The notes beneath the pieces are model-generated. The model was not told the origin of the DNA. It made no database searches and saw only the letters and a program-made list of their open reading frames with translations. Position numbers and translations under genes: made by a program. From contig CAMCME010000007.1 in NCBI GenBank assembly GCA_945875925.1, positions 1-45,965 of the forward strand: a stretch of 45,965 nt of DNA, in the 5' to 3' direction. Of this stretch, positions 39,697 through 45,965 are shown piece by piece. Position 1 is the stretch's first letter; each line of letters starts with the position of its first letter. The DNA is from Rickettsia typhi (GTDB taxonomy: Bacteria > Pseudomonadota > Alphaproteobacteria > Rickettsiales > UBA1997).

Positions 39697-42066
39697 ATGA
39701 ACCTAAAATTAATGCAGGATGAATTGGCAATAGTCAATTCATCCAACGCTTTCTGGCAAAAGCTAGATAGCGATTTTTCTCGCGCTTCTTGTGGTGGTCA
39801 CAATCATGGTAAAGGTGAACAGCATTTTCACATGGCGGGAAATTTTTTGGTAGCACAAGATAAAATCTCTGAGGCGATTTCTACAGTTTTTGGTGATGGG
39901 TTTGATTCTGCAAATTCCGATCACAGAGATCATCTTTTTGTACTTGCCGCAGTTCAGAAAGCTCAAGATCAAATAACTGGCGGCAAAGATTTCGTCTCCC
40001 AAAGAACCAAAGATTTTAATAATCATTTCAACATTTCAGATGATTTGTTGGGCAAAAAAATTGCCGGCGAAATTATTGCAATGCCAGATGCTAAAAAATA
40101 TTTGGTAAAAAAATTTCATCTTGATAACACTTGGGCTAAAGCCAATGTGATAAGAGCAAGTCGAGAAGCCGCGTTAACAAAAGCTGGAAAGTTAGTGGAT
40201 TTGGGCTTTAAAGGCATGGTAAATCCCTTGGTTGAAATTGCTCAGTCAACTTACAGGGCAGCACCTTCATTGGCTGTTGCGGGATTAGCTTTGGGAACGG
40301 CGCAGATGATTTTGCGATCTGCTGGCGATCAAGAAAGTGCTAATAAACTGCGAGATAATATTGGCGCCTCGACTGAAGCAGCAGCGTTTTTTGTTTTGGT
40401 AAATGGTGTTTTAGAAAATTTATCACACTCGTTTATTTTGGCGGCTCCTGCATTTGCAACTGTTGCAGCTTATGATGCGGCGCATCCAAGCTTTAAAAGG
40501 ATTTATGATTATTTTAGAGGCCCCGTGGTTGAAGAGGTGGCGCAGTCAGGCACAGGTTATGTTGATGTTAATCTTAATCTTGAGGATATTTATCCTGAAG
40601 ATGGGGCTAGTAAAGAAAATCAGGAGATTAATCTTCTGCAGCCCAATCCCGTGGTTGAAAATTCTGTTAATGTTAATCTTGAAATTGGGCTTAATGGAGT
40701 AAATAATCTTAATCTTAATCTTGCTGATCTTGCTAATCTTGATCTTGGGGATATTTATCTTAAAGATGAGGTTAGTAAAAAAAATCAGGAGATTAATCTT
40801 TCGCAGCTCAATGTTGAAGAGGTGGCGCAGTCAGACACAGGTTATGTTGATCTTGAACTTGGGCGTAGTAAAAAAAATCCGGAAATTCTTGGATCATTTT
40901 CTCACTCCTCTAATAAGGCGATTAATCTTCTGCAGCGCGCTAAATCTTTTATCTATGAAGACGGTATGTGGCTTGGCTTGCGCAAGCATCAGCTGGCATA
41001 TAAAGATAATGGCTTGGAAGTTGAATTAAAAACCAAAATTCAAGAACTAATTACGGCTGTAATAACAAATCCATTGCAGCTAAATAAACTGTTTCAACAA
41101 GATTTTAATCAAACTTTGTGCGATAGTTTTGTAATGCTTCAGGCTTATTTGGAGGTTTATCGCAAAAATAATCCGGCAAGTGGAGTTGATAAATTTGTTG
41201 AAGAGTTTTGTGACTATTTTTCGCGCGATGCGGTTTTGCTTTCAGAGCCTTCAGAAAATGCAAAGAGGGCGGCTTTTTATTGTAAATCGCATGCTGGCTT
41301 AGTTTCTTTTGAAGAGCGCATCAAAGAATCTTTGCCGCACATGCCAACAGGGCAGCAAGTGCTTCTGATAGCTTCAGTTATTGGTGCTCTATATTCTGCA
41401 AGTGCAATTTACAAAGCGGCAACTGGCCAAGAAGAGGCTTATTCTGACTATGTTACAAATTTTCCAGATCATCTTTTTAAGTGGTTGCAGCTTGACCAAA
41501 TGTATCAAAATATGGGTGGAGGAGCTGAGGCAACTGAAGCTTTTAAAGATTTTTTTGCTGGGTTTAATTTGGCAGAAAACTCAACCCATTTGGGAATTGC
41601 GGTAGCTCCTTTTGCGGCATATTCACAAATGGGTTCAAAAATGTTTGAGGGCATAACGCATAAGCCAATAAATTATTTGGCTTATGCGGCAGATATGGCA
41701 AATTCTTACGCAACAGCTATTGGTGATTGGTTTAGGAGTCCTGCTGCATTAGCACCAGCGCCGGAAGCCCCGAAAAACTATGAAGAAATTAATGCTTCGG
41801 TTGATGTTTCAACTCAAACTGAGGCTGCGAAAGTTGCACCAGCCCCGGAATACAAGGAAAACTATGAAGAAATTAATGCTTCGGTTGATGTTTCAACTCA
41901 AAATGAGGCTGCGAATAAAAAGATTGATCTGAAGGAGATGACTTATTGTGGTCAGACTAAGATTACTAAAGCTCAGGTAAAGCCTAAAGCTAAGATTTCA
42001 AAGCCTAAAGCTAACAATTTTAGTTCCCATCTTTGTAATGACCCTGGGTGTAATTTCAAATCCTAA
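39697..42066 (+). CDS. Large protein of unknown function with His-rich N-terminus and internal repeats
   Basis: 789-aa ORF: CGGHNHGKGEQHFHMAGNF; repeated EEVAQSxTGYVD, DIYxxDxxSKxNQEINL and NYEEINASVDVSTQ segments. Confidence 0.8.
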   Translation: MNLKLMQDELAIVNSSNAFWQKLDSDFSRASCGGHNHGKGEQHFHMAGNFLVAQDKISEAISTVFGDGFDSANSDHRDHLFVLAAVQKAQDQITGGKDFVSQRTKDFNNHFNISDDLLGKKIAGEIIAMPDAKKYLVKKFHLDNTWAKANVIRASREAALTKAGKLVDLGFKGMVNPLVEIAQSTYRAAPSLAVAGLALGTAQMILRSAGDQESANKLRDNIGASTEAAAFFVLVNGVLENLSHSFILAAPAFATVAAYDAAHPSFKRIYDYFRGPVVEEVAQSGTGYVDVNLNLEDIYPEDGASKENQEINLLQPNPVVENSVNVNLEIGLNGVNNLNLNLADLANLDLGDIYLKDEVSKKNQEINLSQLNVEEVAQSDTGYVDLELGRSKKNPEILGSFSHSSNKAINLLQRAKSFIYEDGMWLGLRKHQLAYKDNGLEVELKTKIQELITAVITNPLQLNKLFQQDFNQTLCDSFVMLQAYLEVYRKNNPASGVDKFVEEFCDYFSRDAVLLSEPSENAKRAAFYCKSHAGLVSFEERIKESLPHMPTGQQVLLIASVIGALYSASAIYKAATGQEEAYSDYVTNFPDHLFKWLQLDQMYQNMGGGAEATEAFKDFFAGFNLAENSTHLGIAVAPFAAYSQMGSKMFEGITHKPINYLAYAADMANSYATAIGDWFRSPAALAPAPEAPKNYEEINASVDVSTQTEAAKVAPAPEYKENYEEINASVDVSTQNEAANKKIDLKEMTYCGQTKITKAQVKPKAKISKPKANNFSSHLCNDPGCNFKS

Positions 42067-42110
42067 AGCTAACAATTTGAGTTCCCATCTTTGTAATGAC
42101 CCTGGGTGTA
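41995..42110. repeat. 58-bp tandem duplication (2 copies)
   Basis: ATTTCAAA(G/T)CCTAAAGCTAACAATTT(T/G)AGTTCCCATCTTTGTAATGACCCTGGGTGTA at 41995 and 42053. Confidence 0.95.
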
Positions 42111-42202: not shown

Positions 42203-42733
42203 ATGAAGACTCGTACTCTAAGTGTTGTCGCCGCCTTCACCATTCACGCCTTATTGGCCATCGCTCTTTATTATTCAGTCTCCGCCAAATTCACAGCCCC
42301 ACAAACAGTAGTTGCAATAAATATCCTCTCCCTTGGTGAAAATGCCGAATCAGGAAAAGTTTCAAGCAAAGAAACTTCCAGCAAAATTTCAAATTCAGAA
42401 AGAAAAGAAAGCAGCATAAAATATCACCAACATTCAGCAGAAGAAACACAGACGAAAAATTCTGAAAACCACAAAAACACCCCCCAAAAAGCCGCTCTAA
42501 TTTACAATCCCTTACCAAAAATTCCTGATGACCTGCGCGAAGAAGCCTTCAACAACTACGCCATTGCGCGTTTCAAAATTGCCAAAGATGGCACAGCCAC
42601 AGTTGAATTAATCAAACCTTGCAGCAACCCGCGATTAAATAATTTGTTATTGAAAAACCTAAAAACATGGAAATTCGCCGCTAGCAACAGCGAATCAACT
42701 CAGGAAATTCGTGTGAATTTTAAAGTAGAATAA
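42203..42733 (+). CDS. TonB-like energy transducer
   Basis: N-terminal TM anchor (VVAAFTIHALLAIALYYSV), linker, C-terminal ARFKIAKDGTATVELIKPCSNPRLNNLLLKNLKTWKF. Confidence 0.72.
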   Translation: MKTRTLSVVAAFTIHALLAIALYYSVSAKFTAPQTVVAINILSLGENAESGKVSSKETSSKISNSERKESSIKYHQHSAEETQTKNSENHKNTPQKAALIYNPLPKIPDDLREEAFNNYAIARFKIAKDGTATVELIKPCSNPRLNNLLLKNLKTWKFAASNSESTQEIRVNFKVE

Positions 42734-42810
42734 TTCTGCGCTATTTATAATCAGATCATCTTAAAAGAAGATGTTTTCTGATCTAAAAATTTCATCAGCA
42801 CAAAAGACAA

Positions 42811-42930
42811 TAAAAAAGGCGGACTCGTAAGTCCGCCTCAAATTTTATGCGTCTCTTTTTGACAGAGACACTTGTTACCAGCTTGACTGCAAATTCCCAT
42901 AAGAGCCAAATTGATGAGATCAATATTTTT
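42811..42930 (-). ncRNA. Candidate tracrRNA, transcribed antisense upstream of the cas9 remnant
   Basis: Minus strand: ..TTGGCTCTTATGGGAATTTGCAGTCAAGCTGGTAACAAGTGTCTCTGTCAAAAAGAGACGCATAAAATTTGAGGCGGACTTACGAGTCCGCCTTTTTTATTG: a stem-loop (GTCTCT/AGAGAC) then a strong minus-strand terminator (AGGCGGAC/GTCCGCCT + T6). 5' end is approximate. Confidence 0.5.
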
Positions 42931-42976
42931 ATAATTTTTTAATGAGCAACTTTTTTTTCTAACCAAGCCTAAATTT

Positions 42977-43339
42977 ATGCAAAACACTTCAAAACAAAGT
43001 TACCGATTAGGACTTGATCTTGGCACCAACTCAATTGGCTGGGCGATGCTGGCTTTGAATCAAGAAAATCAGCCTTACAAAATTTTGGATGCGGGTGTAA
43101 GAATTTTTTCGGATGGCAGAAATCCCAAAAAAGAACCGCTTGCCGTCGCCAGAAGAACAGCGCGAGGAATGCGCCGCCGCCGCGATCGCTTTTTGGCAAG
43201 AAAATCAAAACTGATGAATTGCTTGGTTAATCTTGAATTAATGCCCAAAGATGAAATTGAGCGCAAAAAATTAGAATCACTAAATCCTTACGAACTTAGA
43301 TGCAAAGCACTTTATCAAGCAACAGACCTGAGCGCATGA
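42977..43339 (+). pseudogene. cas9: cas9 remnant: RuvC-I motif plus Arg-rich bridge helix only
   Basis: YRLGLDLGTNSIGWAMLAL..GVRIFSDGRNPKKEPLAVARRTARGMRRRRDRFLARKSKLMNCLVNLELMP..LNPYELRCKAL; ORF stops at 120 aa, no REC, HNH, RuvC-II/III or PI domain follows. Confidence 0.9.
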
Positions 43340-43417
43340 GCTTGGTTACAAACCAAGTCTAGCCGAGGTTTTGAGTTAGAATAAAATTTTCTAAAACCAA
43401 AAATGTAATGAATTCTT

Positions 43418-44011
43418 ATGGAAACTTTTTTCACAATCTATGAACACGCTTTCTCTGTATTTGGAGCCATAGTAAAAATGTTTTATTTACATAAGCCAAA
43501 AATTTATGCGGAGCTAAAGGTTGATCGGAAAGATTTTTTTATAGCACCACATTATCAGCCTTCTTGGAGCTTTATTGTTGTGGAGGTAACAAATCGAGAC
43601 TCGATGTCAGTTCAAATTGAAATTGATTCCTTTAAAAAAGAGAGTGGAGAGGTTTGGTTTCCAATTGATTTCCAAGATGATTCTGGATTTCCTCACCCAT
43701 TAGAAGATATTGTAGATCAGTATTATACCGACAAAGGTGATAGCGAATCGTGCAATCCATTGAAAAAAGAGATGAAGGAATACCCGGTTTTGATTAATTC
43801 TGGCGAATCAAAAAAGTTTTATCTCATGGTAGAAAAGGAATATATCGGCTCTTTTTCTAACCCAAGATTAATGAAAAAAATACTCATCCGAGTTGGCTTA
43901 TTCTCTTTGTGCTATAGACCAAAAATTACCCTCTATAATAAATTTATTTTTAGGATGAGATTTTTCGAAGGATTAAAGACTAAGATTATAAATTCCGTTT
44001 CAGCAAAATGA
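43418..44011 (+). CDS. Protein of unknown function, first gene of a cassette within the cas9 position
   Basis: Intact 197-aa ORF; no family recognised; overlaps the next ORF by 4 nt (ATGA). Confidence 0.65.
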   Translation: METFFTIYEHAFSVFGAIVKMFYLHKPKIYAELKVDRKDFFIAPHYQPSWSFIVVEVTNRDSMSVQIEIDSFKKESGEVWFPIDFQDDSGFPHPLEDIVDQYYTDKGDSESCNPLKKEMKEYPVLINSGESKKFYLMVEKEYIGSFSNPRLMKKILIRVGLFSLCYRPKITLYNKFIFRMRFFEGLKTKIINSVSAK

Positions 44012-44874
44012 CCGAATATTTGTATCACTACACAAGTCTAGAAGGGTTAAAGGGTATTTTAGAAAGTGATTGCCTTTGGGCTACTGACGCCTTCAAAAGC
44101 AATGATCTTACCGAGATAAGATTTGGAAGTGAAATTTTAAAAAAGAAATTAATTGAGTCTGGAATTAGTAGAAATGATGCCGAGAAATTTATTGAAGTTA
44201 TTTATAAAGAGATCAAAGAAAAAGCAGAAGGGTTTTTTCTAACCTGTTTTTCTGGAGTGATTAAAGATAAATACCGAGAAGATAATGGGGTATTAAGCCA
44301 GTGGCGAGGTTATGGTTCTTATGCAATAAAATTTGATCAAGAGAAATTAAAAAATTTTATTGCGAAAGAAGGTTCTACAAAAACAGAAGGTTCTGTAAAA
44401 GATTGGTTTGGAATCGCTGATTTTGATGATGGGGTTAAGTATTTTGATCCAATGGGAAATTGCTCTGCAGGATATTTTAAGAAACATTTTGTCTCGCTAA
44501 AAGAAGCCGCTCTTTTAAAAGAGAAATTTTTAGAACTTAAGGAAGATGACTTTAAAAAAGTTATCGAAAATTTTTGCATATGCCTCCTCCTTTCAAAGCA
44601 TGTTGGCTTTGAGGAAGAATTAGAGAGGCGTTGCGCCTACATTGTTTGGAAGGGTGACGAAGAAATAAAAGAAGTAACCAAGATCTATTCTGATGAATCT
44701 GGCAAAAGATACATAAAAAGATTTGTTGGCGGAATAAATAATGCGATTGAGAGCGTTATAATTGGCCCAATGTCTGATGCGGATTACAAGGTTGGCGAGA
44801 TATTTTTATCCAAGCGTAAAATAAAATTTCGCAGATCCGAAACGCCATTCTTAAACTTAAAGAAGTCGAACTAA
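44008..44874 (+). CDS. DUF2971-like protein
   Basis: LYHYTSLEGLKGILESDCLWATDAFKSNDLTEIRFG and FLTCFSG..DNGVLSQWRGYGSYAIKFD, the N-terminal signature of DUF2971-type proteins. Confidence 0.75.
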   Translation: MTEYLYHYTSLEGLKGILESDCLWATDAFKSNDLTEIRFGSEILKKKLIESGISRNDAEKFIEVIYKEIKEKAEGFFLTCFSGVIKDKYREDNGVLSQWRGYGSYAIKFDQEKLKNFIAKEGSTKTEGSVKDWFGIADFDDGVKYFDPMGNCSAGYFKKHFVSLKEAALLKEKFLELKEDDFKKVIENFCICLLLSKHVGFEEELERRCAYIVWKGDEEIKEVTKIYSDESGKRYIKRFVGGINNAIESVIIGPMSDADYKVGEIFLSKRKIKFRRSETPFLNLKKSN

Positions 44875-44924
44875 CCAAAATTTTCGATTCAGGCGCCATT
44901 TTAAAAACAACTTAAAGAAAATTA

Positions 44925-45832
44925 ATGACCAGCCGCATCATTGAAATTTCCGATCCGCTAGTTTCGCTTTCAATGTTGCGTGGTTTTTTGTTGGTGAAGG
45001 TTGAAGGCGTTGAAAAAGCCCGCATTTCTTTTGTAGATATTGGCTTTTAATTTTGAATGGAACTGGCGCCACAATCACCACCAACTTGCTTAATTCTTTG
45101 CTGGAAGCGGGCGTGATGATTGTGGTTTTGGGTGCAAATTATTTGCCTTCGGGAATTTTTTATCCCACCAATCCGCATTATTTGCATAAGCAAAAAATCA
45201 ATCTGCAAATTCAATCTTCAAAGCCGCTTGAAAAAAGGCTTTGGCAACAAGTGGTAAAAGCTAAAATTTTAAATCAGGCGACAATTCTTTCGCATTTTAG
45301 CGGCGAAGACGAAAAGCAACTTTTTGAGTTAGCAAAAAAAGTAAGTTCAGGCGACAAAGAAAATTTTGAGGCGCAAGCGGCAAAAAAATATTGGCAAAAA
45401 CTTTTTGGATCAAATTTTAGAAGAGATCACAATGCGCAAGGCATTAATTCTATGCTTAATTATGGTTATGCAATTCTAAGATCGGCAACGGCTAGAGCAA
45501 TTTTTTCTAGTGGTTTGCATCCTGCGATTGGAATTCATCACAGCAACCAAGAAAATGCTTTTTGTTTAGTCGATGATTTGATGGAGCCTTTTAGGCCGAT
45601 AGTTGATTTTGTAGTAAAAAAAATTTCTGAAGATAATCAAGAAATCAAAGAACTAACGCCTGAAATAAAAAAATCTTTAACTAAAATTTTAAACTTAGAT
45701 TTATCAACATCGGCTGGCACAACGCCAATTAGCAACTGTCTCATCAGGCTTTGCCAATCTTTCGTAAACAGCCTTGAAAGTGGAGAAATAAAATTAGATT
45801 TTCCGCTTTCGCCATTACCTATACCAAACTAA
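44925..45832 (+). pseudogene. cas1: cas1 (type II-like) with a single-base frameshift
   Basis: MTSRIIEISDPLVSLSMLRGFLLVKVEGVEKARISFVDIGF*(45048) then, in another frame, LNGTGATITTNLLNSLLEAGVMIVVLGANYLPSGIF..EAQAAKKYWQKLFGSNFRRD..GINSMLNYGYAILRSATARAIFSSGLHPAIGIHHSNQENAFCLVDDLMEPFRPIVD. Confidence 0.9.
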
Positions 45833-45836
45833 AAAT

Positions 45837-45965
45837 CTATTGATCGCATTAGCTTCATCTTTTTGGTAAAAATTAAAACTTAAAAAAACCAGCGGTATAT
45901 TGATACAGCAAGTTTTTTTAAGTTTTAATTTTCCCTCAAAAATACTTTGCTACTGCGATCAATAG
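45837..45965. repeat. ~129-bp imperfect palindrome ending exactly at the window edge
   Basis: Ends CTATTGATCGCA / TGCGATCAATAG; inner 21-bp perfect arms AAAATTAAAACTTAAAAAAAC / GTTTTTTTAAGTTTTAATTTT; apex GCGGTAT-attg-ATACAGC. Confidence 0.85.

Follow-up and report, generated by a model that had tools for sequence, protein, structure and literature searches.

At least 8 of 21 type II CRISPR-Cas systems in Mollicutes are predicted to be inactivated (PMC6882279), and the CRISPR2 locus of Enterococcus faecalis is an orphan array, devoid of cas genes, that can use the Cas9 of another locus (PMC5930301). Because degraded CRISPR loci are common, the novelty of a further one is low, and the case described here is a clear instance of an ordinary process. 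Judging from alignment with related genomes, about 90% of cas9 was deleted in this lineage and a 1.53-kb segment encoding ORF197 and a DUF2971-family protein stands in its place. We consider it highly probable that this is a recently inactivated type II-C locus whose cas9 was struck by illegitimate recombination, which imported exchangeable, probably defence-type cargo.

The host is an uncultured alphaproteobacterium represented by a MAG of 80 contigs (1.67 Mb, 97% complete, 0.36% contamination). The window, by which we mean the whole stretch of DNA analysed (45,965 nt), is its complete contig C7.

Organization of the locus

The locus order was tracrRNA, cas9 5' end, cassette, cas9 3' end, frameshifted cas1, MITE, cas2 and array. 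The features within the window were as follows.

42812..42903, minus strand: tracrRNA gene with anti-repeat (42871-42903), internal hairpin and terminator hairpin (42818-42837) plus T-run; carries GGGAATTTGCAGTCAAGCTGG of the repeat
42977..43320, plus strand: cas9 5' remnant (RuvC-I and bridge helix), its ORF extending to 43339; defined by TIGR01865 positions 1-106 and comparison with G015 and G024
43321..44856, plus strand: inserted cassette of ~1.53 kb in place of ~3.02 kb of cas9; defined by alignment breaks against G015, G024 and G011
43340..43364, no strand: short palindrome GCTTGGTTACAAACCAAGT, at the cassette's left end; G022 has a similar palindrome upstream of DUF2971
43418..44011, plus strand: ORF197, 197 aa, no known family (family profile searches; low-confidence model)
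44008..44874, plus strand: DUF2971-family gene, 288 aa, sharing 4 nt with the end of ORF197 and bearing a HYD1-type ADP-ribosyltransferase signature at its N-terminus
44857..44915, plus strand: cas9 3' remnant ending in KIFDSGAILKTT and a stop codon; defined by alignment to relatives
44925..45832, plus strand: type II cas1, frameshifted, last codons contributed by the MITE; TIGR03639, E 1.1e-76
45820..45965, no strand: start of a palindromic MITE of ~163 bp, cut by the contig end; TIR TATACCAAACTAAAAAT..., TA target

The first-pass annotation had described a decayed type II locus in which the body of cas9 was swapped for a two-gene cassette. Sister genomes bear out the swap; the extent of decay was overestimated, as the tracrRNA, cas2 and a 14-repeat array survive. 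That annotation had overlooked the tracrRNA, the surviving 3' end of cas9 (44857-44915) and, at the contig end, the MITE (45820-45965).

The 120-aa ORF (42977-43339) matched Cas9 residues 1-106 of TIGR01865 (E 1.9e-28) at 99.3 bits, just below a cut-off of 100 bits that is set for the full-length protein, and also matched PADLOC Cas9 (E 1.9e-19); these profile matches confirm the Cas9 N-terminal fragment recognized earlier. The remnant was near-identical to G015 across the two comparable stretches and 80% identical to G024 at the amino acid level. By sequence comparison, the matches of the Cas9 fragment, of Cas1 and of their collinear relatives are well beyond chance. A full-length Cas9 with RuvC and HNH domains is no longer encoded: residues 1 to about 115 are left, plus the last ~20, and the window is missing the HNH, RuvC-II/III and PI coding sequence, again in agreement with the earlier reading. 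A Csn1 search for a second cas9 found none elsewhere in the genome, the sole other match (E 0.005) being noise.

The gene upstream of the locus varies: it is DNA ligase-like in G015 (L026) and G024 (L024), another gene in G011 (L025) and TonB-like in the window (42203). The CRISPR locus occupies different genomic places within the genus. Further upstream in the window, positions 39697-42066 encode a 789-aa protein of no family, with a tandem-like repeat of ~60 bp around its 3' end (42010-42110).

The replacement lies inside cas9

Alignment of the window to G015, G024 and G011 broke off at 43320 and picked up again at about 44857. The two junction points are separated by ~3.02 kb in G015 and by ~1.53 kb of other DNA in the window; as the 3 kb is still present in G015, the replacement arose in the window's lineage. 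The last ~60 nt of cas9 were kept downstream of the cassette, where the cas9-frame end KIFDSGAILKTT corresponds to KVFDSGPILKTT in G024, and this tail has lost 24 bp internally, between two copies of the 9-bp direct repeat AAAATTTTC. In G022 and G020 the last residues of the DUF2971 ortholog before the stop codon are ETPFLRK and ETPFLVK. The window copy reads ETPFLNLKKSN and a stop codon across the junction: its own stop codon is lost, and the final residues NLKKSN are the cas9 end read out of frame. Read against these orthologs, both junctions fall inside cas9 coding sequence, the right one having taken away the DUF2971 stop codon. The cas9 tail still following the cassette, and DUF2971 running out of frame into it, point to a collinear replacement inside cas9, which on these alignments is hard to explain as misassembly.

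We nonetheless weighed whether chimeric assembly of the MAG had spliced the cassette into cas9. The genome is an 80-contig MAG with multi-copy repeats, and its contigs do break at repeats. Such an error would require two independent false joins, both of them leaving the ends of one cas9 correctly ordered and oriented on a single contig. The end of DUF2971 meets cas9 DNA without a repeat, the loss of 24 bp from the tail is what genuine mutation typically produces, contamination stands at 0.36% and the DUF2971 gene belongs to the genus. On this evidence we regard an assembly artefact as improbable.

cas1, the MITE and the probably adjoining contig

The cas1 gene, frameshifted as first annotated, was of type II (TIGR03639) and read in two frames (44925-45050, then 45053-45832), the relatives carrying one extra base after 45044. 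The frameshift could be a consensus error. The locus does not have an intact cas1 adjoining cas2, as cas1 is frameshifted and cas2 lies behind the MITE. The complete MITE is ~163 bp long, has the ends TATACC...GGTATA and sits at TA; 16 near-full-length copies with 96-100% identity were found in the same genome. The element was also seen on C3, C61, C58, C43, C38, C47, C18, C9, C68, C56, C44, C30, C4 and C13, and many contigs break there.

Contig C3 terminates in the same MITE, followed by cas2 and the array. When the MITE flanks were joined, cas1 ended in PLPSELMIS and a stop codon, compared with PLPTELIIS and a stop codon in G024. Since joining the flanks restores the cas1 3' end, C7 very likely adjoins C3 in the genome; the joining repeat ends many contigs, and it is the continuity of the gene that supports the order. 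The absence of cas2 and of an array noted earlier for the window was thus a contig-end artefact, since C3 carries both beyond its copy of the MITE.

Guide RNAs and spacers are retained

On C3, cas2 was intact (85% to G024), and a repeat-pattern search identified a repeat-spacer array in which 14 identical 36-nt repeats AAGCTAGGCGATGGGAATTTGCGGTCAAGCTGGAAC enclose 13 spacers, each 29-30 nt long. No csn2 or cas4, the genes whose absence distinguishes II-C from II-A and II-B, was found between cas2 and the array here or in G024. The predicted repeat:anti-repeat duplex had an energy of -44.3 kcal/mol versus -19.4 +/- 2.9 for shuffled repeats, a predicted pairing between tracrRNA and repeat. G024 and G015 retain the hairpin and terminator of the tracrRNA in altered sequence; Rfam gave nothing in the window at gathering scores. 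With no effector, the 13 spacers would be inert. Searches for spacer targets found none beyond chance in the genome itself outside the array or in relatives' genomes, and none in phages. Lacking any self-match, the spacers give no indication that autoimmunity caused the loss.

The cassette carries probable cargo genes

Two intact ORFs follow the Cas9 fragment and, consistent with the first-pass annotation, neither is a cas gene (ORF list and family profile searches). The cassette holds only these two, profile searches matched neither to a recombinase family, and a general repeat search of 42700-45965 turned up no evident pair of terminal repeats for the ends at 43321 and 44857; on these searches it does not qualify as an autonomous mobile element, which would have its own recombinase or transposase, or terminal repeats. 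A donor carrying ORF197 beside DUF2971 was not found, and as a pair the two genes share no relatives. Lacking a recombinase, demonstrable terminal repeats and paired relatives, the cassette looks like cargo and not like a mobile element itself. The earlier suggestion that the locus may have become the site of a different element was for these reasons an overstatement. We infer that the cassette came in through illegitimate recombination.

ORF197 has a hydrophobic N-terminal stretch, which is probably a membrane anchor, and the remainder may be a mainly beta domain, as drawn from a low-confidence model. Among 378 genomes of the order, its relatives were found solely in G307 (43%) and G316 (31%), both of the same family; within the 27 genomes of the genus ORF197 matched itself alone, and it had no match in phages, plasmids or viral contigs. 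The G307 relative lies near a reverse transcriptase (PADLOC RT, E 4.2e-50). In G316 (L070, 285-7943) the relative sits between phage-integrase-like and resolvase-type recombinase genes, and a BRO-N (PDC-S13) protein and a type I specificity subunit are encoded upstream. No DUF2971 gene was present beside either relative in the stretch examined.

The 288-aa protein scored 23.6 bits against DUF2971 (PF11185), above the Pfam gathering cut-off of 22, and 23.1 bits against the HYD1 ADP-ribosyltransferase family (PF15633), under its cut-off of 25, the fold model being too poor to judge. It was 75-76% identical in amino acids to the G022 and G020 orthologs, and its dN/dS of 0.23-0.40 indicates, at the level of codon comparison, that the gene is under constraint. 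In G022 and G020 (L027 and L028), DUF2971 is located 3' of argG, and no cas gene is close by. In the window's own genome the place 3' of argG (L105, G000:C31) holds instead an Abi_alpha gene (PF14337, E 1.5e-20), so the 3' side of argG looks like a variable cargo site in the genus. A DUF2971 search of genome_contigs returned one locus, on an alphaproteobacterial MAG contig, with the gene in a position equal to that in G022. Relatives on plasmids had mixed neighbours, one of them adjoining an abortive-infection gene. A 206-aa plasmid neighbour of DUF2971, considered as kin of ORF197, was ruled out, as the two showed no relationship. DUF2971 was absent from viral contigs and gave two weak, partial matches in phages. 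A Halomonas genome reannotation provided the one mention found in the literature.

Because they overlap by 4 nt, ORF197 and DUF2971 are predicted to form, and are probably expressed as, a two-gene operon. Structure models of the two proteins were of low confidence (mean pLDDT 42.6 and 50.8) with no usable fold match, and a search for relatives among solved structures found none. As a membrane-linked beta protein and an ADP-ribosyltransferase-like protein, the two are probably innate-defence or toxin type cargo; it is the gene neighbourhood that makes a defence-type role likely.

Intact cassette genes co-directional with cas9, together with the intact tracrRNA, array and cas2, could also reflect a selected replacement driven by the cas9 promoter, with the retained parts of the locus kept for a new purpose. 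Against such a functional swap, the arrangement occurs in one genome only (among 27 genus and 378 order genomes, no second case of a cassette in cas9 was seen), cas1 is frameshifted and MITE-hit, and a palindrome lies between the cas9 remnant and ORF197. This explanation seems to us very unlikely. So does its broader form, in which the cas9 slot would be re-usable, a two-gene ADP-ribosyltransferase-like defence module having been selected there under the cas9 promoter with guide RNAs and cas2 repurposed, to which we give equally little credence.

It is least likely of all, to the point of being scarcely credible, that the 120-aa Cas9 N-terminal ORF has been domesticated as a stand-alone protein, even though its frame does stay open from the start of cas9 until a stop codon at 43339: in 378 order genomes nearly all of its other matches lie within frames of 988-1219 aa, the shorter ones belonging to contig ends (G011, G015, G308), to a gene with its own internal deletion (G299) or to a 280-aa frame on a short contig (G366); no second copy of the conserved stand-alone protein contemplated in the first-pass annotation was seen among those genomes; and the ORF lacks HNH, RuvC-II/III, the REC lobe past its start and PI.

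Relatives and timing of the loss

Three genomes of the same genus carry related loci. G024 has an uninterrupted cas9 (1118 aa) without the cassette, which is what the comparison with sister genomes was expected to reveal, followed by cas1 (305 aa), cas2 (110 aa) and an array. G015 has the order cas9-cas1, with cas9 split only at contig ends, and G011 has cas1, cas2 and one repeat, its cas9 being divided into two pieces between different contigs. In another genome of the same order, G299 (L093; 100% complete, 20 contigs), cas9 encodes residues 4-335 and then 889-1107 in a different frame, with the HNH region missing and cas1 next; this deletion is independent of that in the window.

Two spans were compared with G015 for mosaic identity, cas1 (44876-45819) and 42801-43096. 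In cas1, blocks as far as about 45355 were 95-100% identical and the sequence further on 67-87%; upstream, identity climbed from 75-85% across the tracrRNA region and reached 97-100% at 42921 and beyond. Such a mosaic, with about 97-100% identity inside and 67-87% outside, is suggestive of homologous exchange of the cas9 region among lineages or species of the genus. The 3' part of cas1 had a dN/dS of 0.06-0.16 versus relatives, compared with 0.07 between intact relatives. Identical repeats and the unrelaxed dN/dS of the cas1 3' part indicate that the loss is recent.

Discussion

The sequence of events that best fits a recently inactivated II-C locus would start from tracrRNA, cas9, cas1, cas2 and array, a system probably functional until recently, in which interference was then lost. 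The segment would have entered by illegitimate recombination of the end-joining or replication type, with no site-specific element involved. At the same time or later, cas1 acquired its frameshift, the cas9 tail a slippage-type deletion of 24 bp and the cas1 3' end the MITE. The tracrRNA and array are perhaps still transcribed without an effector.

The locus offers a well-resolved snapshot of the loss of adaptive immunity, in which the effector goes first and array, tracrRNA and cas2 are still intact, the gap being filled by cargo of a type found at other variable sites of the genus. It also illustrates that apparent CRISPR decay can be exaggerated when a contig breaks off in a multi-copy MITE. 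ORF197 represents an unnamed family, with a reverse transcriptase neighbour in one relative and flanking recombinases in another.

Compared with DUF2971 (PF11185) proteins of plasmids and islands, in a family often found on mobile DNA, the window copy is alike in scoring over the cut-off and in its H-Y-T and downstream conserved residues; unlike the DUF2971 genes examined elsewhere, it has ORF197 as a partner and a C-terminus changed by the junction. The locus resembles the II-C locus of G024 in its tracrRNA, cas9 ends, cas1, cas2 and 36-nt repeat with a GGGAATTTGCGGTCAAGCTGGAAC core, but its cas9 is gutted and cassette-filled, its cas1 is frameshifted and a MITE lies between cas1 and cas2. 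As in E. faecalis CRISPR2 (PMC5930301), an array is left without its own working effector, although here no second Cas9 was found in the genome. As in the degraded loci of Mollicutes (PMC6882279), cas genes have been partly lost and other parts retained; in contrast to those, a self-targeting spacer was not found, and the body of cas9 is replaced by an identified two-gene insert.
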